Shown here: positions 1 through 37,443 of the stretch, one piece after another
How positions within the stretch are numbered: position 1 is the first letter of the stretch
How the letters are laid out: every line of letters begins with the position of its first letter
NCBI GenBank assembly: GCA_030123605.1
Contig: CP126123.1
Span: forward strand, 868,001-932,000
DNA from: Nitrospira sp.
GTDB taxonomy: Bacteria > Nitrospirota > Nitrospiria > Nitrospirales > Nitrospiraceae
Length of the DNA stretch: 64,000 nt
Direction of reading: 5' to 3'
Notes under the pieces: generated by a model
What the model was told of the DNA's origin: nothing
What the model saw: the letters and a program-made list of their open reading frames with translations, nothing else
The model's database searches: none
Translations under genes and position numbers: made by a program

Positions 1-3000
1 ATGGTGCACGACCAGTAAGAGACGACTTGATTCCTTTTGCCCACGGTCGAAGTACGCTGCCTGAAGTAAGGGCCCCTCAGTGATGTTAAGGCTTTGTTGC
101 ACCTCCGTCGCCAACGTTTCGAGCACCAGCGGCCACGACTGATCGTGCCCCCGCATAACCTCCGTAAGGTCAATCCGCCGACAGAGAGTGTGTTTCTCCG
201 CCGAAGCATAGGCTTGAGTCCACCGGCCTGATGGATCCTGTCGAAATCGCAATCGCAAGGCATCATGATGGTCCACCAAGACCTGCATGGCTCGCTCCAG
301 CAGCGGCATCTCCATCGGCGTTTGCACCTCCAGCAGTACAGCCTGGTTCCAGTGATGCGGATTCGGATGCTGCGCCTCAAAGAACCACTGTTGAATCGGG
401 GTGAGCGGTACCGTTCCGGTCACCGGCCCTTGCGAGACCTGACCTTCCTGTTCGCGCACCACGGCGATTTCCGCCAGTTCTGCGATCGTCGGCCGCTCGA
501 ACAACTGTTTGGGCGTCACCTTAAGGCCGCATCGATGCGCGCGCGCAATGATCTGCAGACTGAGGATGGAGTCGCCCCCCAGCTCAAAAAAATTGTCGTG
601 GCGCCCGATACGGTCCCGTCGCAAGACCTCTCTCCAGATCTCGGCCAACCGCCGCTCAACGTCGGTCTGTGGAGCGGCATCGGTCTCCCCACTCTGGTCC
701 CGCAACTGTTCCGGATCAGGCAAGGCCGCTCGGTCCAGTTTGCCGTTTGAGGTCAACGGCAACGAATCCAGCTCGATGATGACTTGCGGCACCATGTAAT
801 CGGGAAGCTGCCGCGCCAGGCGTGTGCGGAGATCGGTCAGCTGTCCCGTCGAGCCTGAAGTCGGTACCACATAGGCCGCAAGCTGCTTAGCTCCGGCCAC
901 TCCCTCGCGCATCACCACCACGGCTTCCTGAATCTCCGGATAGTCCCTCAAGTGAGCTTCGATCTCACCCAGTTCAATCCGATAGCCGCGCAGTTTGACT
1001 TGGTGATCCCGTCGACCGAGAAACTCAATGGTACCGTCCTCGCGATAGCTCGCCTGGTCGCCGGTCCGATACATGCGTGCTCCGGTCTGAGGGTCGAACG
1101 GGTCCGGCCTGAATCGGTCGGCCGTCAATCCCGGCCGTCGGTGGTAGCCATGCGCAAGCCCCGCTCCTCCGAGATAGAGTTCACCTGTTACTCCGACCGG
1201 CGTCGGCTCCAAGTGTCGATCCAAGATGTACGCTCGACTATGGGCAAGCGGACGCCCGAGCGGAACGGTCGCACCCCGGCGCACCCCTTGAGCATCGAGT
1301 CGATGTGTAAGGACCCCGACCGTCGTCTCGGTCGGCCCGTAGTGATTGATCACCGTACAGGCCGGCGCTAAGGCATGGATCCGCTCGACGAGAGTCCACG
1401 TCAATGCCTCCCCTCCCAAAACCAAACACTGCGACGGTAAGACCTGCTCCGGATGAGTCGCGTCCAGCAAACCTGCCAAATGGCTGGGCGTGATCTTCAA
1501 CACGTGAATCTGCTCTCGTTGCATGTATGCCGCCATCTGCTCAGGATGGAACCCCCTGTCAGTCGAGAGGAGATGCAATGTCCGACCGGCGCACAACGCG
1601 CCGAACAGCACGGTATGGCCAAGGTCTGCCGCCACGGTGGAGAGCAAGGCCCACTGGGCGGCTGTCTCTGGCACCGGCATATTCGCCAGCATGCTCGTCA
1701 CGTAACTCACGAGGGCACGATGAGACACGACCACCCCTTTGGGCTGCCCGGTGGAGCCGGACGTATAAATCACATAGGCCACACTCTGCGGATGGGGAGG
1801 CGGTAGGTTTGCATCGGAGCCACCTTCATTGTCTCGATGAATGACATCCTCCACGTCCCACATCCGGATCGTCCGCAACGCCGCGACTGTGTCGGCGGAG
1901 AAGGCCACGCGTACGGCGGTTTGCGTGAGCAACACCTCGACATCGGCATCTTGCAATAGAAACACCAACCGTTCCGGCGGTATCGAAGGCTCTACCGGCA
2001 CATAGGCGGCACCGGCTTTGAGAACCCCCCAGATCGTAATCAGGAGTTCAGGAGACCGTTCGAGACAAAGCCCGACCCGCACACCAGGTCCGACACCGGC
2101 AGCGCGTAACCGGTGAGCCAATCGATTCGCGCGCCGATTCAACTCGGCATACGTGAGTCGTTGCTCTTCAAACACAATGGCCTGTCGTTCCGCCTCTCGA
2201 GCAGCCATGGCTTCGAACAATTCATGCACACACCGAGTCTCTGCCGGCATGTGGGATGTCGTCGGATTCCAGTCCACTAACAGGCGCGTTCGCTCTTCCG
2301 GCGTATGGAGCGTCAGATCAGCCAGACGGCCATGCGGATGGGCCATCATCCAGTCCAAGACCTTTCTGAACTGCGCCAACCATCGCGTCACCATGACGTG
2401 GCTGATTCGCCCATGGGCGTAGCACAATGTGATCTGAATATCCGTACCAGGTTCGATCACCAGGGAGACCGGATAATTGTTCCGTCCCTTGGTCAGCACA
2501 TACCCATCGCCCGCTTCTCCGATGGAACGTGTGCGAATCTGCAGGTCGTGAACAGCCAATCCGGCCTGCTCGCGGATGGGGAAATTCTCGAAGACGACGA
2601 TGGTCTCGAACAAAGGTCGTCCGTTCGGCACGTCGCTCCAGCCTTGAATCTTTGCCAACGGCGTATATTCATAATGACGAAGCGCGCTGTTTTGCTCTTG
2701 CAAGACCTTCAGCCACGACGATACTTGGACGTCGTCATCGACTCGCACTCGCACCGGCAGCGTATTGATGAACAGTCCGACCATCGTGTCTGCGCCTTCC
2801 AAATCCGGGGGGCGTCCGGAGACGGTCGTGCCGAACACCACATCTGCTCCCTGGTCATAACGTTGAAGCAACAGCGCCCACGCGCCTTGCATCATCGTAT
2901 TGAGGGTGAGCCGTTGCTGGCGAATAAAGGCTCCTACTCGCTCGCTGTCTCCAAACGACAACACGACTGTCTGTTCGGCGAAGGGCAATAGGCTCGGTTC

Positions 3001-3678
3001 CGAGGACGGCGACGATTCCGCAGCGGGAAGCCTTGTCGGTGTCGTGAAGCCGGTGAGGTATGTCCGCCAAAATCGTTCGGCTTCTTTGAGATCCTGCCGT
3101 TGCAGCCACGCGATATAGTCCCGATACGGGCGCGCGGGATCCAACTTCGGTTGCTCTCCTTGGATCAAGGCCCCATAGCAATCCAACAGATCTCGCACCA
3201 TCAACTGGAAGCTCCACCCGTCCAATAAAATGTGGTGATGTGTATAGAGTAATGCATAGTCCTGTGCCCCGGTTCGAATCAGTCGCAACCGTAACAACGG
3301 CGCCCGTCGAAACTCGAACCCTTGTCGACGATCTGTCTCCATCGTTGCACGCAGATTCGCGGCCTGCTCACCTTCGTCGGACGATTGCCAATCCGCATAC
3401 TCAATCGACAGCCGTACGGTCTTCTGGACGACCTGAATGGGACGCGGCACCTGTTCCCACACAAACGCGGTCCGCAACACCGCGTGATGCTGAACGACCA
3501 CCTGCCATGCCTGCTCGAAAGCAGGAACATCTATGATTCCTTCCAAGTGATAGACCGATTGATCCACATAGGGATCGACTCCCTCTTCGGCGACATGGTG
3601 GAATAAGAGTCCTTCCTGCAAGTGGGAGAGATAATACATCGACTCAATTTCGGCTCGACGGGATGTAGTCGGCATCAT
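1..3678 (-). CDS. Non-ribosomal peptide synthetase, C-A(Asp-like)-T-E, cut by the left window edge
   Basis: The frame is open from ATG 3678 to base 1, about 1,226 residues, and continues outside the window. The N-terminus (RRAEIESMYYLSHLQEG) looks like a COM acceptor leading into a condensation domain with HHHILLDG near residue 146. The adenylation domain has LTYAELN, YTSGSTGQPKG near 640 and GKLDR at its end. A thiolation domain follows, LGGDS with Ser at 1037. An epimerization-type domain begins PLTPIQQWFFE near 1100, and base 1 falls inside its VVHH motif. Specificity residues read by alignment to GrsA give DLTKVGHVGK, one change from the published Asp code DLTKVGHIGK. I infer that the module loads Asp and epimerizes it to the D form. 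The start lies 4 bases after the stop of the upstream synthetase, in the same operon. Substrate call is moderate; domain calls are strong. Confidence 0.93.
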   Translation of the reverse strand, partial: MMPTTSRRAEIESMYYLSHLQEGLLFHHVAEEGVDPYVDQSVYHLEGIIDVPAFEQAWQVVVQHHAVLRTAFVWEQVPRPIQVVQKTVRLSIEYADWQSSDEGEQAANLRATMETDRRQGFEFRRAPLLRLRLIRTGAQDYALLYTHHHILLDGWSFQLMVRDLLDCYGALIQGEQPKLDPARPYRDYIAWLQRQDLKEAERFWRTYLTGFTTPTRLPAAESSPSSEPSLLPFAEQTVVLSFGDSERVGAFIRQQRLTLNTMMQGAWALLLQRYDQGADVVFGTTVSGRPPDLEGADTMVGLFINTLPVRVRVDDDVQVSSWLKVLQEQNSALRHYEYTPLAKIQGWSDVPNGRPLFETIVVFENFPIREQAGLAVHDLQIRTRSIGEAGDGYVLTKGRNNYPVSLVIEPGTDIQITLCYAHGRISHVMVTRWLAQFRKVLDWMMAHPHGRLADLTLHTPEERTRLLVDWNPTTSHMPAETRCVHELFEAMAAREAERQAIVFEEQRLTYAELNRRANRLAHRLRAAGVGPGVRVGLCLERSPELLITIWGVLKAGAAYVPVEPSIPPERLVFLLQDADVEVLLTQTAVRVAFSADTVAALRTIRMWDVEDVIHRDNEGGSDANLPPPHPQSVAYVIYTSGSTGQPKGVVVSHRALVSYVTSMLANMPVPETAAQWALLSTVAADLGHTVLFGALCAGRTLHLLSTDRGFHPEQMAAYMQREQIHVLKITPSHLAGLLDATHPEQVLPSQCLVLGGEALTWTLVERIHALAPACTVINHYGPTETTVGVLTHRLDAQGVRRGATVPLGRPLAHSRAYILDRHLEPTPVGVTGELYLGGAGLAHGYHRRPGLTADRFRPDPFDPQTGARMYRTGDQASYREDGTIEFLGRRDHQVKLRGYRIELGEIEAHLRDYPEIQEAVVVMREGVAGAKQLAAYVVPTSGSTGQLTDLRTRLARQLPDYMVPQVIIELDSLPLTSNGKLDRAALPDPEQLRDQSGETDAAPQTDVERRLAEIWREVLRRDRIGRHDNFFELGGDSILSLQIIARAHRCGLKVTPKQLFERPTIAELAEIAVVREQEGQVSQGPVTGTVPLTPIQQWFFEAQHPNPHHWNQAVLLEVQTPMEMPLLERAMQVLVDHHDALRLRFRQDPSGRWTQAYASAEKHTLCRRIDLTEVMRGHDQSWPLVLETLATEVQQSLNITEGPLLQAAYFDRGQKESSRLLLVVHH

Positions 3679-3682
3679 GTCC

Positions 3683-6600
3683 TCATTGAATGTCTTCAAG
3701 AATGTGATTCAGCGCCTCCGGGCTGAGCTCGACGTCCGGGAAATCCGCCGGCGTATACCCGGCCGCCTCCCCCGCCAGACACTCTCGGATCAGTGTGCGA
3801 AGCGCCTGCTCATACCGTTCGCCCAGCGCCGCCATCGTGGCTCGGCGGTACCGGCGCCCGCTGTATCCCCACAGGACGTGCAGCCGGCCGTCGAGAATAT
3901 GGGCGTTGATGTCCCACTCATACGGCAGTCGGCTCCCCGCCGCCTGGTTGGGGCCCACGGACTCCGGTGCCGGACGCACCGGCGCCTCCGGCGGAAACGT
4001 CTGGTCCAATTGCCCCAAGTAGTTGAAGCTCACCGGCGCGGGCGGCTGCGCGGCCAGATGGCGCCGGACCTCGGGATCTCCGCCGCCGTAGCGCAGCAGC
4101 CCATAGCCGAGCCCCTTGTGCGGGAGCCGCCGCACCCGGGCTTTCACCGCCGCCAGCACGGCCCCCGGCGTCGCACCGGGCGCCACCCGCACCACGACCG
4201 GATAGACCGTCGTGAACCACCCGACCGTCCGCGACACATCGAGCTCGGGAAATACGTCTTCCCGGCCGTGCCCCTCCAGATCAAACGCCACCACCGCGCT
4301 CCCGCTCCACTCGCTCAGCACCTGAACCAGCGCCGCGAGCAGCACCTCGTGCAGCTGGGTGCGCGCCGCCGCCGGCACCGCCTGCACCAGTTGACGCGTC
4401 GTCTCTGCGTCCACCGACACCGTGACGATCTCGGCGTCCGCCTCGGTCGCCGCCCCCTGCGGGTCCTCGACCGGAATGGCCCAGGCGGCCGCTGGCTCAA
4501 TGGCCAGCCAAGAGGCCGCCTCCGCCTGGAGCGCTGCCGAGTGACTGTAGGCGTGCAACTGCGTCGCCCACGCTTGAAAGGAACTGCTCGTCGGCAGCCG
4601 CACCGGTGCCTGGGTGGTGAGCGCCTGATAGGCCGTCATCAGGTCCTCCAGCAGAATCCGCCAGGAGATGCCGTCCACCACCAAGTGATGGATGACCAAC
4701 AGCAGGCGCGCGGTCTGCGCCGGCCCGCGGGTGAACAGCACCGCCCGGACCACCGGCCCTGTCGTCAGATCGAGCCGCGCCTGCCGGTCGGTCGCCGCCG
4801 CCTCCAACGCCTGGGCTTGCTCGGCCACCGGAACGGCCGCAAGATCGACATACTCCACGGTCACCGCCGCTGCCTCGGCCGCATAGGCTTGTCGCCAGCC
4901 GTCGGCCGTCGGCGTAAACCGCAGCCGGAAGGCGTCATGATGGGCCAGCACCGCCTGCACCGCGTGCTCGAGCCGACGCAGGTCGACCGCCGGTTGAACC
5001 GCTAACAACACCGCTTGATTGTAGTAATGGGGATTCGCCACGCCTTGCGCAAAGAAGTCCTGCTGGATCGGCGTCAGCGGCACCGCCCCCTGCACCGGCC
5101 CTTCTCGTTCGGCCTCCGCCGGCTTGCCCGTGCTCACCGCCGCCAGCGCCGCCACCGTCTGATGTTGAAACAACTGCCGCGGCGTCACTCGGATCCCTCG
5201 CTCGCGCGCCTGAGCAATGACTTGGATGCTGAGAATGGAATCCCCCCCCAACTCGAAGAAATTGTCGTGAATCCCCACACGCTCCACTCTCAAAACCTGC
5301 CGCCAGATCGCCGCCAGCGTGGTCTCGAACTCCGTTCGCGGCGCTACATACAGACGGGCTTCCCCCCCCCCGGCCTCCGGGGCCGGCAGGGCCTTCCGGT
5401 CCACTTTGCCGTTCGGCGTGAGCGGCAGCTTGTCCAGCACCACGTACACCGCCGGCACCATATACTCCGGCAGCCGACGCCCCAGAAACTCCCGCACCGC
5501 CGCCACCGCCACCGGCGCGGTCGTCACCAGATACCCGACCAGACGCTTGGAGCCGGCCGGCTCCGCCCGCGCCACCACCACCGCTTGCCCGATGGCCGGA
5601 TGTTCGCGCAGCCGCGCCTCGATCTCCCCCAGCTCGATCCGGACCCCCCGCACCTTCACCTGCTGATCCCGCCGCCCAAGAAATTCGAGGGTCCCGTCAG
5701 CCCGATAACGCCCCAGATCTCCCGTCCGGTACAGCCGCTGCCCTGGCTGCTCGCTGAACGGATGCGGCCCGAACGCCGCCGCCGTCCGCCCCGGCTCGCC
5801 GAGATACCCCCGCCCCACGCCCACGCCCCCGATCCAGAGCTCCCCCGTCACCCCCACCGGCACCGGCGCCAGATCCGCATTTAATACATACAGCTCCAGG
5901 TTGGCCGCCGGCCGCCCGATCGGCACCACCGTCTCCTCCGCCCCCGGCGCCCGCGTCAGGGGATAGTACGCCACGTCGTCCGCACACTCGGCCGGCCCGT
6001 AGGCATTGAGCAACGGCACGGTCGGATACCGCGTCAACCACGCCCGGCAGAGCTCCGGCGTCACCGCCTCCCCCGTCGGCAACAACCACCGTAAGGCCGG
6101 GAGGGCCGGCGCTGGCTCCACCGCCACCACTTCCCGCAACAACGACGGCACCAGCTCCGCCACCGTCACGCCCGTTCGGGCGAATTCGGCCAGCAACCGC
6201 ACCGGCTCCTGCACGACGTCGTCGGACAGAATCTCCACCCGCCCCCCGCACAGTAACGCGCTCAGCCCTTGCCACACCGAGATGTCGAACCCGACGCCCG
6301 CGGTCTGTGCCACCACATCCCGGCTCGTCAGGCCCAGCACCGGGAGCTTTCCCCACACGTTGTTCACCATCCCCTGCTGCGAAACCACCGCGCCTTTGGG
6401 CTGCCCCGTCGACCCCGACGTGAACAGCACATACCCCACTTGCTGCGGATGCGTCCGGCGCGGCAGCCGCGGGTACCGGCCCGCCGGCAACGACGCCCGC
6501 GTGGCCACCCGCAGGTCGGGCCGCTCCGCCACGAGGGGCTCGAGCCGATGGCGCTCCGCTTCCGTCGTCAGCACCTGCCGCACGTGGCCCTGCGTCAGCA

Positions 6601-9600
6601 GTTGCCCCCACCGCGCCGGTGGATGCGTCGGATCCAGCGGCAGATACCCCCCGCCCGCCTTCAGAATGCCCAGCAGCAGCGTGACCCACTCCACGCCCCG
6701 CGCCGCCAGCACCGCCACCACCGTATCGGGCCCCACGCCCGCCGCCACCAACCCCCCGGCCACCTGCGCCGCCCGCGCGTCCAGCTCCGCATAGGTCAGC
6801 GCCTCCGCCCCGCCTTGCACCGCCACCGCCGCCGGCGTCCGCGCGACCTGCGCCTCAAATAACTCCGCCACACTCTGCTCCGCCGGGTACGCCGCCCCCG
6901 TCTCATTCCACGTCCGCGTCTGCTCACGCACCTCCGCGGCGCTCAGCACCGTCACCTCGCCCAGCCGCCGCCCCGGTCCCGCGACGATTTGCTCCAATAC
7001 CTGCCGAAAGTGCTTCAGCATCAGGGAGACCAGCTCCGCCTTGATGCGAGTGCGATCGAAGATGAAATTGATGGTGGTCGCAGGCCCTGGTATGACATCC
7101 AAGGTCAACGGATAGTGCGTGTGACCTTCGACGACCATATCCTCCACCGTCACGCCGTCCTGCGCGTCGGACAACCCCTGCCCCATGGGATAGTTTTCAA
7201 ACACGAGGAGACTTTCGAACAATGGTTGGCCGCGGGGCACATCGCTCCATCCTTGGATTTGATAAAGCGATGCATATTCGAATTCCCGCATTTCCAGATT
7301 CTGGTTCAGCAAGGCTTGAAGCCACGTCACGATGGAGCTTTCGGAATTGATCCGGACACGAAGCGGAAGCGTATTCAGGAAGAGCCCGATCATCATCTGC
7401 ACCCCAGGCAGATCCGGGGGCCTACCGGAAACCGTGACACCGAACAAGACGTCGTCCTCGCCGCTGTAATGCCTCAACAGGAGAGCCCAGACACCTTGGA
7501 TCAACGTATTGAACGTGATCTTATGGCGCTGACAAAAAGCCGAGACGAGTTGCGTCTCATCTTCGGGGAGACGGAGCGACTGTTGCTCAAATTCCAGAGA
7601 GGACTCGTCGTGGGAAGGTGAAGCGTGCTCCTGTACCGCCACGACAGTGGAAGCGGTGAACCCGGCCAACGCCGCACGCCAATATCGTTCGGCCGAACTG
7701 AAATCTTGCCGCCGGAGCCAGGCAATATGATTCCGATACGGAGGGGCCGGTGTGAGCGATTCCCTTTTTCCATGTCGAAGACCCCGATAGCGGAGAAAGA
7801 CTTCTTTGAGGAGCAGCGATACGCACCAGCCGTCAAGCAAGACGTGATGGTGATTCCACACGAAGAAATAAGCCTGTTCCGCGATGCGGATGAGAGCGAC
7901 TCGAAGCAGGGGCGCCGTCGAGAGATCGATGCCGTTGGTTCGGGCAGTTCGAAGGTACAGTCCCAATCGTGCTTGTTGCATCTTGCTCGAAAGCCCTCGC
8001 CAATCTTCGACTTCAATCGGCAAGGTCGCCCGTGCGTGAACGATTTGAAGCGGCTCGCGTAGACCCTCCCACACAAAGGAGGTGCGGAGTATGGGATGCC
8101 GATCGACGATCCCCTGTAACGCTTCTTGAAACAACGGAACGTTCAGATCGCCCGTCAGCGTACAGCTGAGCTGCTCGATGTAGACCCCGGAGTTTTCATG
8201 GATGGTATGGACCAAAAACCCTTGCTGCAGCGCGGTCAAGGGATACACGTCATCGATGCCCCGTCGCGTCTCAAGGAAACGGTCGATCCCGGATTGGTCC
8301 AATCCGCTCAGGGGAAAATCCGACGGTGTACGGCCCCCTGTTTTTGATTGTAGGCAATGTTGTATCAGCTCGTTGAGGATCTCCAGATACGTCCGGCTCA
8401 GTTGCTGAACGGTCTCGTTGTCATATCGAGACCGACTGTATGTCCATGACATGTGCAACCGTTCGCCCAAGATGTCGCTGTTGATATCCAACTCGTACGG
8501 AAGCATCGCCTCAGGATCGCGATCGACTCCGGCGGCATCGATCGACGGTACGAAGGGAGAATCAGCCGGAAGAACATGGTCCATCTGTCCGAGATAATTG
8601 AAGCGGACCTGAGATGCCGGATAAGACCGCAGGGTTTCCATGGTGGATGTCGAAGGCTCAAGATAACGAAGGATGCCGTATCCGATTCCTCCATGCGGAA
8701 GGCGCCGTAGCTGTTCTTTGACGGATTTCAAGCAATCGGCGAGTGGCGCATCCGGCGACCACGACAACAGAATGGGCGTGACCCCCGCGAACCAACCCAC
8801 GGTGCGAGACAGATCCACATCCGAGAAGAGATCCTCGCGGCCATGACCTTCCAGATCGAGCAAGACCTCTTCATGGCCGCTCCATCCGCCCAGCGTTCGC
8901 ACCAATGCCGTGAGCAATACATCATTGATATGTGTTCGGTAGACAGCCGGCACATCCTGCAGCAGGGCATGGGTGGAGGCCTCGTCCATCCAGACATGAA
9001 GCGTCTCCGAAACGAGTTCGCGCTTGTCTCCCGTCGGGTGATCGACGGGAATCGGAAGTGCGCGTCGATAAGCAGGATCGAGCCAATAGGCGGCTTCGCG
9101 TTCCAGTGTTTCGGACGTGACATGCTCCGCCAATCGTGTTGCCCAACGTGCATAGGACGTACTTTTTGTCGGCAATGATACCGACAGGCCCGCTGCGAGC
9201 TGCCCGTATGCGAGATGAAAATCCTCCATCACGATCCGCCACGAAATCCCATCCGTCACCAAATGATGCATGACGAACAGCATCCGGTCTGGTGTTGCTC
9301 CGCCCATCGCGAAATACACCACCCGCAATTGAGGGCCGACGGCGATATCGAGGCTGCGCTCCCAGCGATCGATCTCCTCATCGAGGTGGACACGCCGACT
9401 CTCCGGGGGAATCGAGGACAGATCGATCAGGTGCATCACCTGTTGATTGTCCTGGGCGGCGTACCGTTGCGTCCATCCGCGTTCGTGACGATCGAAGCGC
9501 AAGCGCAACGCATCGTGATGGGCTACCACATGCTCCATCACCTCGGTCACAATGGAAAGATCGAGCGGCCACTTCAATTCCAACAGCAACGACTGATTCC

Positions 9601-23318: not shown

Positions 23319-23388
23319 CGATGCCCCCTCTTTCATCGGCGGCTGATGCGAGTCGTTGTCGCAATTCGAACCGTTCTGTTGTCGTTCA

Positions 23389-24395: not shown

Positions 24396-24475
24396 CATTG
24401 CCTCCTCGGTGTAGTGACTGCATGAACATTCATCGACGGCGATCGGCGGACATTCACCGCTGCCGTCCTTCTGAC

Positions 24476-26848: not shown

Positions 26849-28242
26849 GCCTGATCTCGGGTCGCAGCCTTGACGGCAGCCAAAAAGATGGCCGCAATCT
26901 TGTCGATCTCTTCCGGTGTGACGATCAAGGGCGGAAGAAAACGAACCACGACGTCATGACGCCCTCCCAACTCAACGATCAATCCCCGGCGCAGTGCCTG
27001 CGTCTGAATGCTGCGGGCCATGACGGCATCGGCGGGGTAGCTGCCTCTGTGATCCGGCTCCGCAAACGGATCAACGATTTCCACACCGACCATGAGTCCA
27101 CGGCCGCGGACATCGCCCAGAATGGGATACTCACGCTGCATCTGACGAAGCCGATCGACCAGCCGCTCGCCCATGGCCGCCGCATGGTGATCCACCCGCT
27201 GCTCCAGAACGAATTCCATCGTGGCGATGCCCGTCGCCATGGCCAATTGATTTCCCCGGAAGGTTCCGGCGTGCGCACCCGCCGACCAGCGATCCAATTC
27301 CGCCTTGTATACCACCACACTCAAGGGCAATCCCCCGCCGATCGCTTTGGACAACACCACCACATCCGGAACGATGCCCGCTCGCTCGAAGGCGAAGCAC
27401 GTGCCGGTCCGTCCAAGCCCGGTCTGCACCTCATCGATGATCAGCGGAATCTTACGTTCCTGAGTGATACGCCGGATCTCACACAGCCACTCGTCGGGAG
27501 CGGGAATGACCCCGCCTTCTCCCTGCACCACCTCGACGATCATCGCCGCCGGCCTCACGATGCCGCTGTTCGGGTCGTCAAGCAGCCGTTCGATGTATCG
27601 ACTGGACAAGCGATGCCCCGCTTCACCTCCGATACCGAACGGACATCGATAGTCGTAGGGAAAGGGTAGGAAATGGACGTCCGACATCAGCCCGGCCACC
27701 GCCTCCTTGGGCGAGAGACATCCCGTGAGACTCAACGCGCCATGCGTCATGCCGTGATAGCCCCCATGGAACGAGAGGATGGAACGGCGTCCCGTGGCGG
27801 TCTTGGCGAGCTTGATCGCCGCTTCGATGGCATCGGCCCCCGACGGCCCACAGAATTGAATGCGCGCCTCGCCGGCGAACGTTTCCGGCAAGCAGGAAAA
27901 GAGCCGCTCGGTAAACTCGTCTTTCGTGGGTGTGGTGAGATCCAACGTCTGGAACGGAAGTTTCTCCTGCAGCGCTTGCTGGATGGCATCGATGACGACC
28001 GGATGGTTATGCCCCAACGCCAACGCCCCCGCACCGGCGAGACAATCGATATACGTATTGCCTTTCGTGTCCTGAACATAGATCCCTTTGCCTTTTCGCA
28101 ACGCCACCGGAAGTCGCCGTGGATAGCTTCTGGCATTCGATTCACGGGCCGCCTGTCGTTCCAGGTACGGGTCCAATTCGTCACACGACGTCATCGCGCC
28201 AGTCGGCAATTCCCGCCACATTTCATCGAAAGGAACGATCAT
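26845..28242 (-). CDS. Diaminobutyrate--2-oxoglutarate aminotransferase (PvdH/EctB-type, class III)
   Basis: A 465-residue class III PLP aminotransferase. The cofactor-binding aspartate lies in LIIDEVQTG and the Schiff-base lysine is Lys299 in VVLSKAIGGG; FCGPSGADAIEAA and GAHAGTFRGN match the diaminobutyrate group. The enzyme converts aspartate semialdehyde plus an amino donor to L-2,4-diaminobutyrate. That fits the adenylation domain with code DIWELTADDK encoded downstream in the same operon, much as PvdH serves pyoverdine synthesis. AGGAGT precedes the ATG. The gene starts 9 bases after the exporter stop and overlaps the acylase start by ATGA. Other class III substrates such as ornithine or lysine cannot be excluded from sequence alone. 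Confidence 0.9.
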   Translation of the reverse strand: MIVPFDEMWRELPTGAMTSCDELDPYLERQAARESNARSYPRRLPVALRKGKGIYVQDTKGNTYIDCLAGAGALALGHNHPVVIDAIQQALQEKLPFQTLDLTTPTKDEFTERLFSCLPETFAGEARIQFCGPSGADAIEAAIKLAKTATGRRSILSFHGGYHGMTHGALSLTGCLSPKEAVAGLMSDVHFLPFPYDYRCPFGIGGEAGHRLSSRYIERLLDDPNSGIVRPAAMIVEVVQGEGGVIPAPDEWLCEIRRITQERKIPLIIDEVQTGLGRTGTCFAFERAGIVPDVVVLSKAIGGGLPLSVVVYKAELDRWSAGAHAGTFRGNQLAMATGIATMEFVLEQRVDHHAAAMGERLVDRLRQMQREYPILGDVRGRGLMVGVEIVDPFAEPDHRGSYPADAVMARSIQTQALRRGLIVELGGRHDVVVRFLPPLIVTPEEIDKIAAIFLAAVKAATRDQA

Positions 28243-28251
28243 GGGAGACTC

Positions 28252-30096: not shown

Positions 30097-30322
30097 CGAC
30101 CGAGCCCTCAGGTCCGATTGACAAAAACATCACCATCGAGGGTGTTATCCGGAGAATAAACATGGGTGAACCGGAAATCGAACATGGCCCACAGTCCTGT
30201 ATTGCCATTATTGTTGGAGCAATCCGCATCGCGAGTTGTTCTCACAACCGGAGATCAAAATATGGGTTCCCGTCCTCACGCCGAATCTCCTGATTCCATT
30301 GGCGTTGCAACGATCTGACCAC
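30097..30322. promoter_or_regulatory. Divergent promoter region between the biosynthetic operon and fecI-like gene
   Basis: The 226 bases separate the first gene of the 30-kb operon from the divergently read sigma-factor gene, so promoters for both should lie here. The stretch 30195-30230 is AT-richer than its surroundings and holds TTATTGTTGGAGCAA-like half-sites. I could not recognise a convincing Fur box or a FecI-type promoter by eye. The assignment rests on gene arrangement only. Confidence 0.5.
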
Positions 30323-30856
30323 ATGAGATCTTCCGGCATGAGCGAACGCGCCTTCACCACGGCAGATCGTTTTCTGCTTTTCCGAGAGTACTACGACGAG
30401 CTCGTCGTCCATCTCACCAGGAGGTTGCGTTCACGCGACCAAGCCATGGACTTGGCACAAGAGACGTTTCTTCGCGTATTGACTCAGGGAACGAATACGC
30501 CTGTCGAGCATCCACGTGCATTTCTCTATAAGACCGCCTGGAATCTCTCGGTCGATCTCTTCCGTAAAAAGAAACGACAGGCCGAGGAATCTCTTGAAGC
30601 AGAAGAGATCAGGGAGGTCTTGACGGTATCAGCCAATCAGGATGCCATCGTGGAATCGAAAGAGCAGGTGGAGATCCTCTGTCGTGCGGTTCAAGAACTT
30701 CCCCCCAAATGCCGCCAGGTATTTCTGCTCAATAAATTCAAAGAACGATCGCATGCGGAGATCGCCGCACGGTTGGGCATCTCGAAGAGTATGGTGGAAA
30801 AACACATCACCAAAGCGATGGCCCACTGCCGGCAGCGATTGGAAGACACCCTCTAG
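30323..30856 (+). CDS. FecI-like ECF sigma factor
   Basis: An extracytoplasmic-function sigma factor of about 177 residues. Region 2 is seen in LVVHLTRRLRSRDQAMDLAQ followed by ETFLRVL, and region 4 in LPPKCRQVFLLNKF and SHAEIAARLGIS with a helix-turn-helix. FecI-group sigma factors direct transcription of ferric-siderophore uptake or siderophore genes after a signal from an outer-membrane receptor via a FecR protein. A FecR-like gene lies downstream on the same strand, and the siderophore-type operon is divergent, so control of that operon is likely but inferred. ATG 30323 and ATG 30338 are both possible and neither has a clear Shine-Dalgarno site. The stop codon lies at the very edge of a repeat element. 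Confidence 0.9.
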   Translation: MRSSGMSERAFTTADRFLLFREYYDELVVHLTRRLRSRDQAMDLAQETFLRVLTQGTNTPVEHPRAFLYKTAWNLSVDLFRKKKRQAEESLEAEEIREVLTVSANQDAIVESKEQVEILCRAVQELPPKCRQVFLLNKFKERSHAEIAARLGISKSMVEKHITKAMAHCRQRLEDTL

Positions 30857-31374: not shown

Positions 31375-32430
31375 ATGAGAAGACGTCACGATCCAGCGAC
31401 TGGCCTGCGGTCTACACGACAACAAGCTGTTGGATGGATGGTCCGTCTCCGTTCAGGGGAGGCCGACGACGCCGATCGGGAACAATTCGACATCTGGTTG
31501 GCCAAAGACCCTACCCATCGACAGGAATTCGATCGCCTTGTTGCAATGTGGAACACCTTGGATCGCGCCAAACCGTTGTTGGAGAGGGACCTTCTCGAGG
31601 CAGAGGCCGTATATCACAGTGCTTCACGCAGTTCGGCGTTGAGTTTCTGGTTCCGTCAGGGAGGTCCGGGACGCCGCCTCATGACCGTCGGCGCATTGGC
31701 GGCGCTCCTCATTCTAGTCACCTCATGGTGGTGGACTTGGCCCTCCGAAGCAGTCCGTTACCACACGGCAAAAGGAGAACAACGACACGTCACCCTCGCG
31801 GACGGTTCCTCTGTGATGCTGAACACGGCATCCGAAATCATTGCGCAATTTTCCAACAAGGAACGGTTGGTCGTGCTCGATCACGGAGAAGCGTGGTTTG
31901 AAGTGCGACACGACGAGAAGCGGCCGTTTCGCGTGCTGGGCGCCAACGGTGCCGTACTCGATATCGGCACACAATTTATTGTGAACAAATCCTCGGAGAA
32001 GGTGATGGTCTCCGTATTGGAGGGAACCGTCGAAGTTCACGTGCCCGCCGTACCGGAGTCGCCTATGGCCGTTCGACCGGCACGGGTCCATCAGGGGGAG
32101 CAAGTCTGGTACGATGCCACAGGGCGGGTATCGTCGATCGACTCGTTCAACCGATCAATGGTCGGCGCATGGCGCGAAGGGAAACTCGTCTTTCAGACGC
32201 TGCCGCTCGAACACGTGCTCGCGGAAATGGCTCGATACCGACCCGAGGACATTCGCGTACTTGATCCCGAGCTGAAAAACATCCCGGTCAGCGGCGTGTT
32301 CAACATTCGAGATCTGCAGCACTTCGTCCAGGCATTGCAGGATGCGCTTCCGATCCGAGCGATCTGGGTCAATCCTCAACTCATCATCATCGAGCCGAAG
32401 TCGGCCACGACGACACACCGGAAGTCGTGA
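31375..32430 (+). CDS. FecR-like anti-sigma/transmembrane signal transducer
   Basis: A 351-residue protein with the FecR layout. A cytoplasmic DUF4880-type region (AVGWMVRLRSGEADDADR) comes first, then a single membrane span near 103-117 (ALAALLILVTSWWW), a periplasmic FecR domain (RYHTAKGEQRHVTLADGS, LNTASEI, VLEGTVEVHV), and a C-terminal STN-like region (FNIRDLQHFVQALQDALP). It should relay receptor status to the ECF sigma factor encoded upstream. AAGG lies about 8 bases before the ATG. The usual third partner, a TonB-dependent receptor gene, does not follow. The distance of about 520 bases from the sigma gene is abnormal and is filled mostly by a repeat element. Confidence 0.92.
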   Translation: MRRRHDPATGLRSTRQQAVGWMVRLRSGEADDADREQFDIWLAKDPTHRQEFDRLVAMWNTLDRAKPLLERDLLEAEAVYHSASRSSALSFWFRQGGPGRRLMTVGALAALLILVTSWWWTWPSEAVRYHTAKGEQRHVTLADGSSVMLNTASEIIAQFSNKERLVVLDHGEAWFEVRHDEKRPFRVLGANGAVLDIGTQFIVNKSSEKVMVSVLEGTVEVHVPAVPESPMAVRPARVHQGEQVWYDATGRVSSIDSFNRSMVGAWREGKLVFQTLPLEHVLAEMARYRPEDIRVLDPELKNIPVSGVFNIRDLQHFVQALQDALPIRAIWVNPQLIIIEPKSATTTHRKS

Positions 32431-32738
32431 ACCGCTATTCGTTGCTCAATCACCTTCCGGCACCAGGACGCCGGTGCCGCCGCTGCATCCCAAGCGCAAT
32501 CCTCGAAACCAGTCAAAGTGCGGGAAGTGGTCGTCAACGAGGCGGTGGACCGGACGCCGGCCAATGATTCACCACAACCCTTTGGGAAGCTCACGGCCCA
32601 CCGGAACCACCTGGAGAACCGGCGAGGCTTTTTCCGGAAACTGGACATTCCTGGCGCCTCATACCCATGATAGGTTCTCTTCCGACTATTTTATTGTGCG
32701 CGCCCTCTTTTGCCCAGAAGACAGCGAGGAGTGCTCCC
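32431..32738 (+). other. 308-base gap, possible relic of a TonB-dependent receptor start
   Basis: No intact gene was found. A plus-strand frame through 32461-32671 reads as coding-like protein (AAAASQAQSSKPVKVREVVV, then NEAVDRTPAND) and ends at a TGA near 32671. An Ala-rich stretch followed by a VREVVV-type strand is what the mature start of a TonB-dependent receptor often looks like, and a receptor is expected after a fecR gene. The rest of the frame does not look like a receptor plug. This is a weak inference. Confidence 0.3.
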
Positions 32739-34538
32739 ATGAGCGTGACCGTTGGTCTCGATGATCACAAGGCATCCGCCCCTCCGTTGCGAGCCTCTGT
32801 CCAGGCGGCGCTGAATGCCAATGATCCCCTTGCGGCCAAGAGGCTGTGCGAACAACATCTCCGCGTGCTGCCGGACGACCCCGATGCGCACCGATATCTG
32901 GGCCAACTCCTCATCATGCTCGGAGAACGCGAGCAGGCCCTGACTATCGCTACCCGCGCCACAGCATTGACACCGCAAGACCCCCGCACCTGGTCCGATC
33001 TTGGACGGGTCCATGTCCTGTCCGGACATCGTCGTGACGCGATCCCCTGCTTCGAAAAGGCCGTCGATCTCGCTCCGGATTTTGCCGACGGCTGGCATAA
33101 CTTGGGCCTGGCGCTCCGGCAGACCGGACAGACTCAGCGGGCCTTCGACGCCTTGAAGCAGGCCTTGCTCATCGATCCGACCCGAGCGGAGACCTATCTG
33201 AGCCTTGGAAATGTATTAGTAGATGCACAACAGTTGGAGGACGCCATCGGTTGTTTTGAACGGGCGGTGGTCTACGATCCTTCGCTGGCGAAGACCCACA
33301 CGCGCCTGGCACAGGAACTGTCTCACCGAGGCGACGTCGACCGTGCAGCATCGCTCTTTCGGCGTGCACTCTCACTCGATGGCGAAAGTATCGAGAACTG
33401 GTTCGGGCTGGGGCGCACCCTCGAAGACCTCGGTCAGCAAGAAGCTGCGTTGAGCTGCTATCGGAACGTGTTGGAACGACAACCGGGACACGCCTGGGCG
33501 CTTGGAAATTATTTGGCGCTGGCGAAAGGGGATGAAGGCCGAGAATGGATCGAGCAACTGGAACCGGCGCTGGATCGAACGGATGGTTCGGCAGAAGCTC
33601 AGGCCCTCATGGGGTATGGGCTGACCAAATGGTATGACCGCCGAGGTCGTTTCGGGGAAGCTGCCTGGGCAGGCCGCCGCGCCAACGCCGCCAGGCGAAA
33701 GACGGCCGGGCCGTTCAACCGTACCGCACTGACCGGCCGGATCGATGCCATTATCGCGGCATACACCGTGGAATTTTTTGCCGAACGCCGCCACAGTGGG
33801 ATCGGGACCGACCAACCGGTGTTCATCGTCGGCTTGCCGCGCTCCGGCACGACGTTGACCGAGCAGATTCTCTCGGCCCATCCGCTGCTGCATGGCGCGG
33901 GGGAGCTTCCCGATTTGGCACGACTGGCGATGGAGTCCCTCGATGGAAAGGACGCGGCGCGGTGGCAGGGTGCGCTCAAGCTCGATGACGACATGACCAG
34001 CCGGAGGCTGGCCCATGAGTATTTGAGCGCATTGCGGCGCGGTGCCCCGCCGGACTGCCGTCGCATCAGCGATAAGCAACCGCTGAATTTTTTCCAACTC
34101 GCCTTTGCCGCCCTGCTCTTTCCCAACGCCCGTGTCATTCATTGCCGGCGGGACGCGCGGGACAATGCGCTGTCGATCTGGATGGAGAATTTCAATGCCG
34201 ATCAAACGTACGCCACCGACTTTGGCGATCTCGCCCACTTCATGGCCGAGTATCGTCGGCTGATGGCGCATTGGCACGCAGTGCTTCCGCTGCAGATCCT
34301 GGATGTGCACTATGAAGAGACGGTGACCGACCTGGAGAGACAGGCCCGTCGAATCATGGCGTTCCTCAAAGTGCCCTGGGACGACCGCTGCTTGGACTTC
34401 CATCAAAGCAACCGGGCCGTGCAGACCCCCAGCCGATGGCAGGTACGTCAGCCGATTTACAGCAGTTCCGTACGTCGTTGGCTACACTATCGCGAGTATT
34501 TGCCTGACCTGGTAGCGGCGTTTTCCGAAGAATCGTAA
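32739..34538 (+). CDS. TPR-repeat sulfotransferase
   Basis: About 599 residues. The N-terminal half is a run of tetratricopeptide repeats (for example DAIPCFEKAVDLAPDFADGW and ALLIDPTRAETYLSLGNVL), and the C-terminal half is a PAPS-dependent sulfotransferase. The 5'-phosphosulfate loop is seen in FIVGLPRSGTTLTEQIL, and the 3'-phosphate region probably in HCRRDARDNALSIWMENF. The start was set at ATG 32739 because GAGGAG lies about 8 bases upstream; a frame from 32667 has no such site. The APS kinase that makes the donor PAPS follows after 27 bases. The acceptor is unknown. The position between siderophore regulators and iron-uptake genes suggests that it may sulfate the peptide product, but a surface glycan is equally possible. 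Confidence 0.88.
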   Translation: MSVTVGLDDHKASAPPLRASVQAALNANDPLAAKRLCEQHLRVLPDDPDAHRYLGQLLIMLGEREQALTIATRATALTPQDPRTWSDLGRVHVLSGHRRDAIPCFEKAVDLAPDFADGWHNLGLALRQTGQTQRAFDALKQALLIDPTRAETYLSLGNVLVDAQQLEDAIGCFERAVVYDPSLAKTHTRLAQELSHRGDVDRAASLFRRALSLDGESIENWFGLGRTLEDLGQQEAALSCYRNVLERQPGHAWALGNYLALAKGDEGREWIEQLEPALDRTDGSAEAQALMGYGLTKWYDRRGRFGEAAWAGRRANAARRKTAGPFNRTALTGRIDAIIAAYTVEFFAERRHSGIGTDQPVFIVGLPRSGTTLTEQILSAHPLLHGAGELPDLARLAMESLDGKDAARWQGALKLDDDMTSRRLAHEYLSALRRGAPPDCRRISDKQPLNFFQLAFAALLFPNARVIHCRRDARDNALSIWMENFNADQTYATDFGDLAHFMAEYRRLMAHWHAVLPLQILDVHYEETVTDLERQARRIMAFLKVPWDDRCLDFHQSNRAVQTPSRWQVRQPIYSSSVRRWLHYREYLPDLVAAFSEES

Positions 34539-34565
34539 GACTCGGATGGACCTTTTGTGGACAGG

Positions 34566-35156
34566 ATGCCGCACGGAGCCCGCCGAAACGTTCCCGTGTG
34601 CCGGTTCATAGAAAGGATGGAGGAAGCAATCCCTCGGCAGGGTTTCACCGTCTGGTTGACCGGTCTTCCCGGTGCCGGGAAGACGACGCTCGCTCGATTA
34701 CTGGCGCAGGACCTGGCTCGACGCGGTCTGTCGGTTGAAACGCTTGACGGCGATGAGGTTCGCCGGCAATTGGGAAGAGACTTGGGCTTCACCCGAGAGG
34801 ATCGGAATGAAAATGTGCGCCGCATCGCCTTTGTGGCCGGGTGCATCACACGTGCCGGCGCCGTCGCAGTCGTCGCCGCGATCTCGCCCTATGCCGAAGC
34901 CCGGGCTGAGGCGCGCAAGGAAATCGGTCGATTTGTCGAAGTGTTCGTGCGCTGTCCGCTCGCCGTTTGTGTTCAGCGTGACCCGAAAGGACTCTACGCC
35001 AAAGCCTCACGGGGCGAGGCGCTTCATGTGACCGGCATATCGGATCCGTATGAGGAACCGATGCATCCGGACGTGATCGTCGATACGGATCACGAGCTTC
35101 CTGAACCGAGTCTGGCTACCATCGTGAGGTATCTGGATTCCGCTCGCTATCTTTAG
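34566..35156 (+). CDS. cysC: Adenylylsulfate kinase (APS kinase)
   Basis: Phosphorylates adenylyl sulfate to PAPS, the donor for sulfotransferases. The P-loop is GLPGAGKTT, then DGDEVRRQLG, the family block FTREDRNENVRRIA, ISPYAEARAEAR and KGLYAKA. At about 197 residues it is a stand-alone kinase, not fused to ATP sulfurylase. Start choice is uncertain: ATG 34566 gives the usual 30 residues ahead of the P-loop region, a GTG at 34557 and ATG 34617 are alternatives. It lies 27 bases after the TPR-sulfotransferase and is surely its partner. No other sulfate-assimilation gene is nearby, which argues for a dedicated sulfation role. Confidence 0.93.
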   Translation: MPHGARRNVPVCRFIERMEEAIPRQGFTVWLTGLPGAGKTTLARLLAQDLARRGLSVETLDGDEVRRQLGRDLGFTREDRNENVRRIAFVAGCITRAGAVAVVAAISPYAEARAEARKEIGRFVEVFVRCPLAVCVQRDPKGLYAKASRGEALHVTGISDPYEEPMHPDVIVDTDHELPEPSLATIVRYLDSARYL

Positions 35157-35237
35157 CAGGCCCCTGCATGGCTCGTGCAGGGATCGTTTCCTCGGTATTG
35201 CGGCACAGCGCGATCACTACCGACGCCCCTTGTTCGC

Positions 35238-35561: not shown

Positions 35562-35562
35562 G

Positions 35563-37101
35563 TCACACCTGCTGTGTTTCGAGAACCGGCTCGCTCGCAG
35601 GCTGCGACGCGGTCCCGATCCGCCCAACGTGCCGCCCCCCCCACCCAAGGAGCAGTCCTGTCGCCAGACTGGTCAGGTCGATCCCGGCCAACCTCCACAT
35701 CTCATTGGGGATGGTGATCAGCATGTGACTCTGTGTGGTGGCCATATTGAGCAGCGGCAAACACGCAAAGAGCGCGCCGCCGCCGTATAACTGTTCTTTC
35801 CAGGCGGCGGACCATTCACGCCTCAGAAAAGCGTGGAGGACGCAGAAGCCCCAGGTCAGAAAGAACATGCGCATTTCCCACAGCGCCCTGCCTGCAAGGT
35901 CGGTCGGGAGGAGGCGGTTGCTCCAGAAGAAAGCTGCCGTGGCGATCGGGAGGCCCGCCACGATAGCGATATTCAGTCGCTCAACAAGCCGGTACCACAC
36001 TGTCGTGGCCGCGTCAAAATGGCGCGCACGCCGCTTGACGGTCCAAAGCACGAGTCCCGTGGCGATCATGACGCTGGCGGCGAGCCCCATCAAGAAATAG
36101 AGCCACCGGATCGTGATCTTGTCGAACCAAATATAATGAAGGCCGATCACCACGGAATAGGTCAGAAAAGCCGGTTGAGTGGCTTTCCAAACTTGAAGCG
36201 TCTCCCCGGTCGCACCGTCGAATGTGACTCGATCGGAGACCAATGCCAGCCGGTCGTCTGTGCGGCGCGTGATTTCTACGAGTGCGTGCCGATCGCCGGG
36301 ATTGTGGACTTCGATCCATTCGGTCGTCCCGCCGTCCCAATGCTCGCGAGCTCTCCGTTCAAGTGTCTCCAAGGAAACCAACGGCGCTCGGTTGTGTTGC
36401 GGAGACCGCTCGATGCGCTGCTCCATATCGGCGACGACTTGTTCCTCATCGCCGCCATACAAGAGATCGACTCCGGCCGGAATGTAGATCTGCCCAAAAA
36501 TCACCAGCCCGGTAAAGGTGATCATGAAATGGAAGGGCAGTACGAGCACACCGGTCAGATTGTGAACATCCAACCACGCGCGATGGGGCGACGATCTGGG
36601 ACGGAAGGTGAAAAAGTCTTTGAAGATCCGGCGATGAATGACCAGTCCGGTCACTAACGCCACGAGCATGACCAGGGCGGAGGCTCCGACGACCCATACG
36701 CCGACACGGTCTAAATGCAACTGATAGTGGAACCGATAAAAGAACTCCCCACCGTGCGTGTCACGAACGGCCACCGGCTTGCCTGAGAGCGGTTCGATCA
36801 GCCGTTCCTCGAATTGATCCTGCCTCTTCCAGAAGATCTTCGTGACCGGGAGTCGGTTGGTGGGAAGCTCGATCCACCAGTGATCCGAATTGCCGCCCAG
36901 CGTCGACAACTGTCGCGTGACGGCGTCGACATTGAGTGCGGCGGCCGGCAGATGATGCAGTTCCGGCTGCATCCAATAGGTGATTTCCTTGTCGAATACG
37001 GTCAGGGTCCCGCTGAAGAAAATAACAAACAAGAGCCATCCAAAGAGCAATCCGCCCCAGGTGTGCAGCCAATCCATCGATTGTGTGAAGCTGTCTTTCA
37101 T
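35563..37101 (-). CDS. PepSY-associated transmembrane protein, probable siderophore-linked reductase
   Basis: A 512-residue inner-membrane protein of the PepSY_TM (PiuB/FoxB-like) family. The first span (GGLLFGWLLFVIFFSGTLTV) is followed by a periplasmic segment. FRFHYQLHLDR- and LDVHNLTGVLVLPFHFMITF-like histidines match the heme or metal-binding helices of the family, and IGLHYIWFDKITIRWLYFLM lies before the last cluster of spans. Members act in ferric-siderophore reduction or uptake across the inner membrane. It lies between DUF3649 (upstream) and DUF3325 (downstream, TGACATG junction). The trio normally accompanies a TonB-dependent receptor, which is missing here. Exact electron-transfer chemistry is inferred. 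Confidence 0.9.
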   Translation of the reverse strand: MKDSFTQSMDWLHTWGGLLFGWLLFVIFFSGTLTVFDKEITYWMQPELHHLPAAALNVDAVTRQLSTLGGNSDHWWIELPTNRLPVTKIFWKRQDQFEERLIEPLSGKPVAVRDTHGGEFFYRFHYQLHLDRVGVWVVGASALVMLVALVTGLVIHRRIFKDFFTFRPRSSPHRAWLDVHNLTGVLVLPFHFMITFTGLVIFGQIYIPAGVDLLYGGDEEQVVADMEQRIERSPQHNRAPLVSLETLERRAREHWDGGTTEWIEVHNPGDRHALVEITRRTDDRLALVSDRVTFDGATGETLQVWKATQPAFLTYSVVIGLHYIWFDKITIRWLYFLMGLAASVMIATGLVLWTVKRRARHFDAATTVWYRLVERLNIAIVAGLPIATAAFFWSNRLLPTDLAGRALWEMRMFFLTWGFCVLHAFLRREWSAAWKEQLYGGGALFACLPLLNMATTQSHMLITIPNEMWRLAGIDLTSLATGLLLGWGGRHVGRIGTASQPASEPVLETQQV

Positions 37102-37140
37102 GGCTGCGTCGGGGGGTCCTTGTGGGAGCGAAGGCCCGGT

Positions 37141-37443
37141 TCATCCCCCGGCGGTTCGCGCGAGCGGGACGGCAACCGCGGCACAAGCAGCGGCCGGGAC
37201 CAAGAGGCCGATCCAGGCCCGTTGCGGTGTCGATGCGGCAAAGGCCCACAGAATGGCGACCGTGTAGAATACAAAAGACAGCATCGACGCGGTCAGGATC
37301 GCCTCAATTTTTGATAACGGCAGCAACAACGTCAAGCACGCCGTGGCCGCATAAGTCAGACCATAGCCGCCGAAGGCGGCCGCCAGGACCCGCGCCGTCA
37401 CGTTACGCCAGGATACCTTCTGCACTCGGTCTGGAGTTCTCAT
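37141..37443 (-). CDS. DUF3649 family small membrane protein
   Basis: About 100 residues with three hydrophobic segments (VLAAAFGGYGLTYAATACL, IEAILTASMLSFVFYTVAIL, LLVPAAACAAVAVPLA). The AFGGYGLTY block is what I recognise in DUF3649, a family found with PepSY and DUF3325 proteins beside siderophore receptors. The start was placed at ATG 37443; ATG 37455 is a possible alternative, and a frame to 37488 adds a non-membrane leader. It is the first gene of the trio, 39 bases before the PepSY gene. No receptor is found upstream. Confidence 0.8.
   Translation of the reverse strand: MRTPDRVQKVSWRNVTARVLAAAFGGYGLTYAATACLTLLLPLSKIEAILTASMLSFVFYTVAILWAFAASTPQRAWIGLLVPAAACAAVAVPLARTAGG

Follow-up and report, generated by a model that had tools for sequence, protein, structure and literature searches.

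What does a nitrite-oxidising bacterium make with a large peptide assembly line that stands among iron-uptake genes? Nitrospira play a key part in nitrite oxidation and have iron-rich enzymes, and no described Nitrospira siderophore was present among the literature matches listed. The stretch analysed here, called the window, comprises 64,000 nt of Nitrospira sp. (CP126123.1, 868,001-932,000; genome of 4.32 Mb on a single contig) and carries on its minus strand a FAAL-primed polyketide synthase/nonribosomal peptide synthetase (PKS/NRPS) line. The initial annotation of the window had proposed a metal-binding peptide made by acyl priming, export and trimming. The architecture and the linkage to iron genes (a TIGR01783 receptor, FecI/FecR and related clusters) agree with this proposal; the acylase scores far below the PvdQ model, and the genus gave no convincing ornithine hydroxylase. 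The best reading is a Nitrospira family of secreted, deacylated siderophores that follows this acyl-prime, export and trim logic, and it is considered probable because FecI, FecR and an STN-type TonB receptor adjoin the line in all nine clusters with enough flank (seven of type I and two of type II).

The iron genes beside the window line are the following, where negative positions lie to the left of the window in its own coordinates.

-19830 to -17062, convergent with the line: siderophore-type TonB receptor with STN domain (TIGR01783 285 bits, cut-off 223.5)
30236..30856, plus strand: FecI-type extracytoplasmic function (ECF) sigma factor (Sigma70_r4_2 58.5 bits, Sigma70_r2 43 bits; 61% identity to the copy in the sister-genus genome G084)
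31375..32430, plus strand: FecR-type anti-sigma regulator (PF04773 80 bits, DUF4880 57 bits)

The two regulators, already recognised in the initial annotation as divergent from the line, lie before its start, and the receptor lies 0.2 kb past its end. In G084 the receptor, FecR and FecI are found within about 6 kb after the last NRPS gene. All seven complete type I clusters have FecI, FecR and an STN-type receptor past the last NRPS gene, the receptor being 7.5-15.6 kb away. The count omits G003 and G011, in which the cluster is cut by contig ends, and G016, in which it is incomplete; STN was called by Pfam for the window receptor and by alignment over that region for the other receptors. The receptor of the window shares 63% identity with its counterpart in G084, which also belongs to type II, versus 26-38% over matched stretches with the type I receptors, and thus receptor and line diverge together. 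A scan of 29900-30500 gave no sigma-70 promoter or terminator pattern; such a scan does not cover FecI-type promoters.

The line extends 16.8 kb beyond the left edge, to -16846, in agreement with the earlier observation of an operon leaving the window. Domain searches of the window and the neighbouring stretches gave the biosynthetic order FAAL-T-C-A-MT / A_C-T / KS-AT-T-C-A-T-E-C-A-T-E / C-A-T-E / C-A-T / C-A-T-E / C-A-T-C-A-T-E, distributed over these genes.

16550..22291, minus strand: FAAL-T-C-A(core)-MT protein, 1913 aa, predicted to load a fatty acid and then to activate residue 1
16553..17500, minus strand: insert after a8 of the first A domain, about 110 aa plus a guanidinoacetate-methyltransferase (GAMT)-like domain up to the stop codon (3orh, 2.8e-26)
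15895..16548, minus strand: A_C (a9-a10) plus T as a separate protein, 217 aa (PF13193 25.5 bits, PF00550 50 bits)
3683..15898, minus strand: PKS/NRPS KS-AT-T-C-A-T-E-C-A-T-E (modules 3 and 4), 4071 aa
1..3699 in the window, gene continuing to -998, minus strand: NRPS C-A-T-E (module 5), 1565 aa
-4254 to -1003: NRPS C-A-T (module 6), 1083 aa
-9020 to -4296: NRPS C-A-T-E (module 7, L004), 1574 aa
-16846 to -9083: NRPS C-A-T-C-A-T-E (modules 8 and 9), 2587 aa
-26353 to -20668: RND set, after the TonB receptor, adjoining the line

By identity, the C domains fall into two groups. Those placed after an E domain (modules 4, 5, 6 and 8) share 41-96% among themselves, those of modules 1, 3, 7 and 9 share 45-51%, and identity between the groups is 23-27%; the E domains thus match the C domains that come next. 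Specificity codes were extracted by alignment and anchors, and residues were read according to the specificity-code literature. Modules 4, 6, 8 and 9 carry DIWELPADDK, which we take to be 2,4-diaminobutyrate (Dab), and module 5 carries DLTKLLHVGK, presumably Asp-like. The DVEN-type codes of module 1 (DVENVVAVTK) and module 7 (DVENVAAVTK) are assumed, with an unsure reading, to denote a basic or related residue, and the residue reading of module 3 (DILQQCVVWK) is likewise unsure. The AT domain bears an HAFH motif, taken here as malonyl, and a profile domain search found no KR domain in the window PKS. For a Dab-coded module, PvdL was the best match in the PDB. An Asp-coded module and a TauD hydroxylase are both present as candidate chelator genes.

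The modules of the line have apparently been reshuffled. Module 7 has a hybrid A domain, its core resembling that of module 1 and its C-terminal part being near-identical to the Dab modules; by sequence this appears to be a natural A-core swap. The Dab modules have stretches of 1.7-3.1 kb in common at 96.6-99.7% DNA identity. GC is 0.70 at 4001-6000, on module 4, and 0.54-0.65 in the other 2-kb bins of the window. Together, the near-identical Dab modules and hybrid module 7 look like recent module conversion and core swapping, and the repeat at 70% GC suggests recent conversion or acquisition. Elsewhere in the genome, a second, smaller FAAL-primed NRPS (G000:C1:1201883-1212983, L090/L091; 3125 aa, A-T-C-A-T-C-A-T by profile models) stands in a locus at 1.20-1.21 Mb and has a separate PvdE-type exporter that shares 41% identity with the one in the window.

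Upstream of the line, the same strand carries the genes for export, proposed trimming and accessory functions. Profile searches placed the exporter, aminotransferase, MbtH, type II thioesterase, SyrP-like oxygenase and FAAL-primed PKS/NRPS where they had been annotated.

28252..30096, minus strand: cyclic-peptide (PvdE/SyrD-type) ABC exporter (TIGR01194 489 bits, cut-off 286)
26845..28242, minus strand: L-2,4-diaminobutyrate:2-oxoglutarate aminotransferase, for Dab supply (PRK06938 777 bits, cut-off 671)
24476..26848, minus strand: Ntn-hydrolase acylase (Penicil_amidase 565 bits; Ser259 nucleophile in AVGSNGW)
24159..24398, minus strand: MbtH-like protein, 79 aa (PF03621 80.9 bits, cut-off 27)
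23389..24258, from the first possible start, minus strand: type II thioesterase with GHSIG (PF00975 155.5 bits)
22305..23396, minus strand: TauD/SyrP-like Fe(II)/2-oxoglutarate oxygenase (PF02668 161 bits; HNE...H metal motif)

The exporter is 83% identical to the G084 copy, and the true start of the thioesterase is probably further in, because its first possible start overlaps MbtH. The supposed PvdQ-type acylase is indeed an Ntn-hydrolase, but it reached only 57 bits with the PvdQ equivalog model against a cut-off of 950 and was rejected as a PvdQ orthologue; its nearest solved structures are D-succinylase (7ea4, 192 bits) and penicillin acylases, with PvdQ at 47 bits. The N-terminus of the acylase is hydrophobic, and the enzyme is probably membrane-anchored and periplasmic. 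Removal of the fatty acid is proposed as its role. The oxygenase is proposed, from its sequence, to be an Asp beta-hydroxylase; it is 57% identical to a TauD enzyme of Methylomagnum and 54% identical to a C-TauD protein of Trichormus, both located in NRPS clusters, and the Trichormus cluster ends in a TonB siderophore receptor. Additionally, a Methylocystis plasmid carries a similar exporter and acylase alongside NRPS/PKS genes.

The cluster family was found in 11 of 29 genus genomes, the own genome and N. defluvii included, and in one sister-genus genome. Full-length acylase (at least 52% identity) and MT insert occur in the identical set of 11 genus genomes, and G020 gave only a weak partial acylase match. 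Among 175 family genomes, the MT insert is full-length in 12, again counting the own genome, and in two others the match is partial or weak. Each of the 11 relatives' clusters encodes the exporter, Dab aminotransferase, acylase, type II thioesterase and TauD enzyme. Type I clusters (G001, G004, G005, G018, G019, G023 and G027 complete; G003, G011 and G016 partial) have the order FAAL-T-C-A-MT, A_C-T, PKS, exporter, aminotransferase, acylase, thioesterase, TauD and then the NRPS line. Their codes read X1-C2-Dab-Ser-Dab-Ser-Asp-Dab-Asp-X10 in five of the seven complete lines, four of these having a DVEG-type X10 and G004 having Ser instead. In G019 two inner positions are changed and the final residue is Ser, and G023, as called, is two modules shorter. 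All seven complete type I lines have a second TauD domain, located at the end of the protein that precedes the second Asp-coded module, and a fused TauD domain was searched for in the window's own line without a match. KR was checked by Pfam in one relative, G001 (N. defluvii), whose PKS contains it, and most of the remaining type I PKS genes have this longer size. Type II consists of the window and G084, which have a common gene order from exporter to module 6 at 58-85% identity over shared proteins, and which differ in the residue code of module 4 and in the later modules. In G016 (C1, near 3465000-3471000, L049), the cluster breaks off within the NRPS protein that comes first after TauD, and unrelated genes take its place, an apparent truncation.

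The earlier statement that no pathway with this exact set had been described needs revision in view of this family. Moreover, an antiSMASH-based survey counts 16 nonribosomal-peptide (NRP)-metallophore regions in 15 of 307 Nitrospirota genomes, in a table that holds the one occurrence of 'Nitrospir' in the main text (PMC12971057). The general kind of system is already known; new here are the family architecture in the genus and the GAMT-type split module. The family provides a concrete, testable siderophore candidate for Nitrospira, N. defluvii included.

The analysis establishes gene content, domain order, the fit of C to E domains, the split first module and the proximity of iron-uptake genes. 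From these a scheme is proposed, in which the residues, the place of methylation, deacylation, the route of secretion, release, regulation and the binding of iron are all predictions. FAAL would load a fatty acid, and the split A domain would activate residue 1, a basic and probably guanidino amino acid, whose side chain would be N-methylated by the built-in GAMT-like domain. One malonate extension without ketoreduction would follow, and seven amino acids would then be added (X3, Dab, Asp, Dab, X7, Dab, Dab), with Asp beta-hydroxylated by the TauD enzyme and residues 3, 4, 5, 7 and 9 turned into the D form by the E domains. The PvdE-type ABC exporter would carry the acyl-peptide into the periplasm, where the Ntn-hydrolase would cut off the fatty acid, and the RND efflux set would secrete the product. 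The ferric form would re-enter via the STN-type TonB receptor, which would switch the operon on through FecR/FecI. Besides the iron-gene linkage, this scheme is favoured by the domain order and C/E consistency, by the codes, by the PvdL match of a Dab-coded module, by the Dab aminotransferase in the operon, by the second TauD domain of the type I lines and by a hydroxamate-type Methylomagnum cluster that has a PvdA-type monooxygenase and a GNAT together with the same order of acylase, MbtH, hydrolase, TauD and NRPS.

Several points weigh against a siderophore. For the window copy, the prediction yields beta-hydroxy-Asp as the only clear iron ligand, and the survey names this residue also in non-chelating lipopeptides such as turnercyclamycin (PMC12971057). 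A PF13434 search of the 29 genus genomes revealed no convincing ornithine/lysine N-hydroxylase, and catechol genes were not searched for. Partial PF13434 matches of 19.6-25.7 bits occur in 9/29 genus genomes, six of them above the 21.3-bit cut-off and the own match (20.7) below it, and the model also matches in 12 of 14 control genomes; a hydroxamate siderophore was rejected on these partial and weak matches. In G016, STN receptors lie far from the incomplete cluster. Furthermore, because the clusters are related to one another, the linkage counts do not amount to independent observations. The assignment of residues to codes is tentative, the acylase substrate is putative, and the window line has no terminal thioesterase (TE) to account for release and may be an impaired copy.

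This last point leads to the alternative that survives best, namely that the window holds a decaying siderophore line. Recombination of near-identical Dab modules would have lost the last C-A-T-TE gene while the sister clusters remained intact, and the window copy would make little or altered product; such decay is quite possible, although it falls short of probable. The initial annotation had suggested looking for further modules and a terminal TE or reductase left of the window; the modules are there, but domain searches found neither TE nor reductase at the end of the window line and no TE in its last protein, a result that partly undercuts the functional product it had proposed. The last domain is an E domain with 39-43% identity to the line's other E domains; a terminal C domain was considered and rejected, the domain grouping with the E domains. 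By comparison, the lines of G084 and of all seven complete type I clusters (8/8) end in a TE of 80-89 bits (cut-off 26.4), and the output of the window copy is uncertain because its line ends otherwise, even though the family as a whole looks functional. When the genome was searched with the last protein of G084, only known modules, weak matches to other ligases and the second NRPS locus were returned; a missing terminal module elsewhere was rejected, no other TE-bearing Dab module copy having been found. The Dab-module repeats within the line offer a substrate for unequal recombination, which could have removed the TE, but they could also have been collapsed in assembly, which would mimic such a loss. 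Against decay, all line genes are open frames with no internal stops, and the T-domain serine motif is present in 10/10 T domains (nine by pattern search, that of the PKS seen directly). The type II thioesterase might release the chain instead. A decaying window copy would, moreover, be compatible with the siderophore explanation for the family.

A cationic, Dab-rich lipopeptide antibiotic or envelope-active peptide of polymyxin-like character is an unlikely alternative, in which the FecI/FecR/TonB neighbours would be present by chance or serve other siderophores. Four Dab-coded modules, two basic-coded residues and a single Asp in the window copy would suit such a product, as would the adjoining RND exporter, and turnercyclamycin is a known beta-hydroxy-Asp lipopeptide that is no metallophore (PMC12971057). 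The constant presence of FecI, FecR and STN receptor beside the line, with a receptor that diverges along with it, argues for the siderophore family instead, as do the two Asp-coded modules and two TauD hydroxylase domains of type I members.

Slightly less likely still is a different use of the acylase. Prodrug activation by deacylation is known from colibactin- and xenocoumacin-type systems, and here a freed residue-1 amine beside a beta-keto amide might close a ring and yield a reactive or chelating head. The KS-AT-T without KR directly after residue 1 would leave such a beta-ketoamide, and the FAAL start and the acylase with its hydrophobic N-terminus would fit. However, the ring-closure chemistry is drawn by analogy, and the keto group is no constant of the family, because N. 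defluvii has a KR at the matching position and most other type I PKS genes are of similar size.

The first module of the line raises a question of its own, which the initial annotation had overlooked together with the TE-less end. The five best PDB matches of the AlphaFold model of the insert (mean pLDDT 74.4, pTM 0.67) are all GAMT structures, and by this model 3orh is the closest at 33% identity. Residues E137 and D225 of the MT domain are invariant in 18/18 aligned sequences and align with the guanidine-binding acidic pair of GAMT. A guanidino side chain would be the methylation target, and the MT domain likely acts on the carrier-bound residue. At the junction, TGACATG, a single base separates the MT stop from the A_C-T start, and the 217-aa protein would by analogy complete module 1 in trans.

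This arrangement recurs in 18 distinct NRPS loci of four phyla: the own genome, 10 other genus genomes, G084, a Nitrospirales metagenome-assembled genome (MAG; L062), a Thermodesulfobacteriota MAG (L067), Pseudoduganella (L068), Nocardiopsis (L070), Streptacidiphilus (L072) and Streptomyces (L073). In all 18 the MT frame ends at a stop codon and A_C-T is on a separate gene, as a stop-free match in another frame. A core and MT form one protein in 15/18, and in the three actinobacteria the MT is a third, separate open reading frame (ORF), with the A core on the preceding one; the A-core match in Streptomyces is weak (71 bits). The relative frame of A_C-T is +1 in 14 loci (13/13 Nitrospirota and Streptacidiphilus) and +2 in four (DHS20C13, Pseudoduganella, Nocardiopsis and Streptomyces). 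A single shared frameshift signal is excluded because junctions and relative frames differ between loci. Among named genomes scanned for the MT insert, Ca. Nitrospira defluvii (FP929003) and other Nitrospira were the closest of 17 loci, and 72,556 plasmid records gave just two weak partial matches to a GAMT-like MT. Outside the count of 18, Micromonospora and Allokutzneria loci (L069, L071, L074) have free-standing GAMT-like MT ORFs with no A core recognised directly before them. On plasmid C of Trichormus variabilis (L103, 11297-14536), C-A (722 aa) and A-T (314 aa) are encoded by two different ORFs; from their sequence, this pair, near the C-TauD protein in the TonB-receptor cluster, is possibly another split A domain.

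Module 1 might represent a distinct cross-phylum station, in which one or two polypeptides carry the A core and a guanidine N-methyltransferase and a further one carries A_C-T. Its methylated arginine-type head would become a new iron-binding or cyclised head after deacylation in the periplasm next to the beta-ketoamide; this proposal is regarded as doubtful. An artefact of annotation or sequencing, or a programmed frameshift yielding one protein, is a very improbable cause of the split and was rejected, for despite the one-base gap between stop and start it is seen in 18/18 loci of different assemblies, each with a stop-free A_C-T match and with junctions and frames that vary. The conserved split provides an A domain that, with its GAMT-like insert, is naturally divided at the hinge and is useful for NRPS engineering.

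The remaining neighbours lie beyond FecI/FecR.

32667..34538, plus strand: TPR-sulfotransferase (PF13469 151 bits)
34557..35156, plus strand: adenylyl-sulfate (APS) kinase, for PAPS supply (PF01583 203 bits; TIGR00455 212 bits, cut-off 138.7)
35563..37101, minus strand: PepSY_TM protein (PF03929 211 bits)
37141..37488, minus strand: DUF3649 small membrane protein (PF12365 22.2 bits, cut-off 21.2)

The sulfotransferase and APS kinase (32667-35156), also missed before, directly follow FecI/FecR and could possibly serve a sulfated siderophore or a sulfated envelope component; the G084 contig stops 1 kb past FecI, short of any corresponding position. Of the three iron-uptake genes annotated earlier, PepSY and DUF3649 were recovered, both on the minus strand, and the PepSY_TM protein is possibly a ferrisiderophore reductase. 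The supposed DUF3325 gene is an ORF (37506-37907) without a Pfam match and was not confirmed.

Comparison with known systems places the window line between several of them. Pyoverdine biosynthesis combines an acyl start, a PvdE exporter, a Dab aminotransferase, an Ntn acylase and ECF sigma and STN receptor logic. The window resembles it in acyl start, PvdE-type exporter (TIGR01194 above cut-off), Dab aminotransferase, Ntn acylase and ECF sigma/STN receptor, but has no convincing ornithine hydroxylase, an acylase far from PvdQ, a PKS extension and FecI/FecR regulators; pyoverdine itself was rejected as the product, with neither a convincing PvdA-type hydroxylase nor a PvdQ orthologue identified. 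A FAAL/PKS start also occurs in the cupriachelin type. With the beta-hydroxyaspartate siderophores cupriachelin, variochelin and cyanochelin, the window has in common a lipopeptide NRPS line, a TauD-type Asp hydroxylase and siderophore uptake genes; it differs in its acylase, PvdE-type exporter, Dab-rich line and split methylating module 1, and no hydroxamate genes were found in it. Cyanochelin is listed as a beta-hydroxyaspartate siderophore in the survey (PMC12971057). The Methylomagnum ishizawai plasmid NZ_AP019784 has, like the window, acylase, MbtH, hydrolase and TauD before the NRPS line and an RND set after it. It differs by a PvdA-type monooxygenase and GNAT between acylase and MbtH and by NRPS genes without the MTgamt domain, and no Dab aminotransferase or exporter is among its features listed in the PLSDB gene table, which is incomplete. 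The MT domain has the fold of human and rat guanidinoacetate N-methyltransferase (3orh, 1xcj), with 33% identity and the invariant acidic pair, but unlike these enzymes it is embedded in an NRPS A domain and has a 110-aa N-terminal extension. The closest precedent for the split is corallorazine Crz1/Crz2, the one tested case, in which a split A domain with nMT works in trans in vitro (PMC11342130). There, too, the MT follows A8 and ends at a stop, with A9-A10 and T on the next gene; Crz1/Crz2 is Gly-specific and bimodular (PMC11342130). In the window line the code is of DVEN type, the MT is GAMT-like, and A_C-T forms a free-standing protein of 217 aa.

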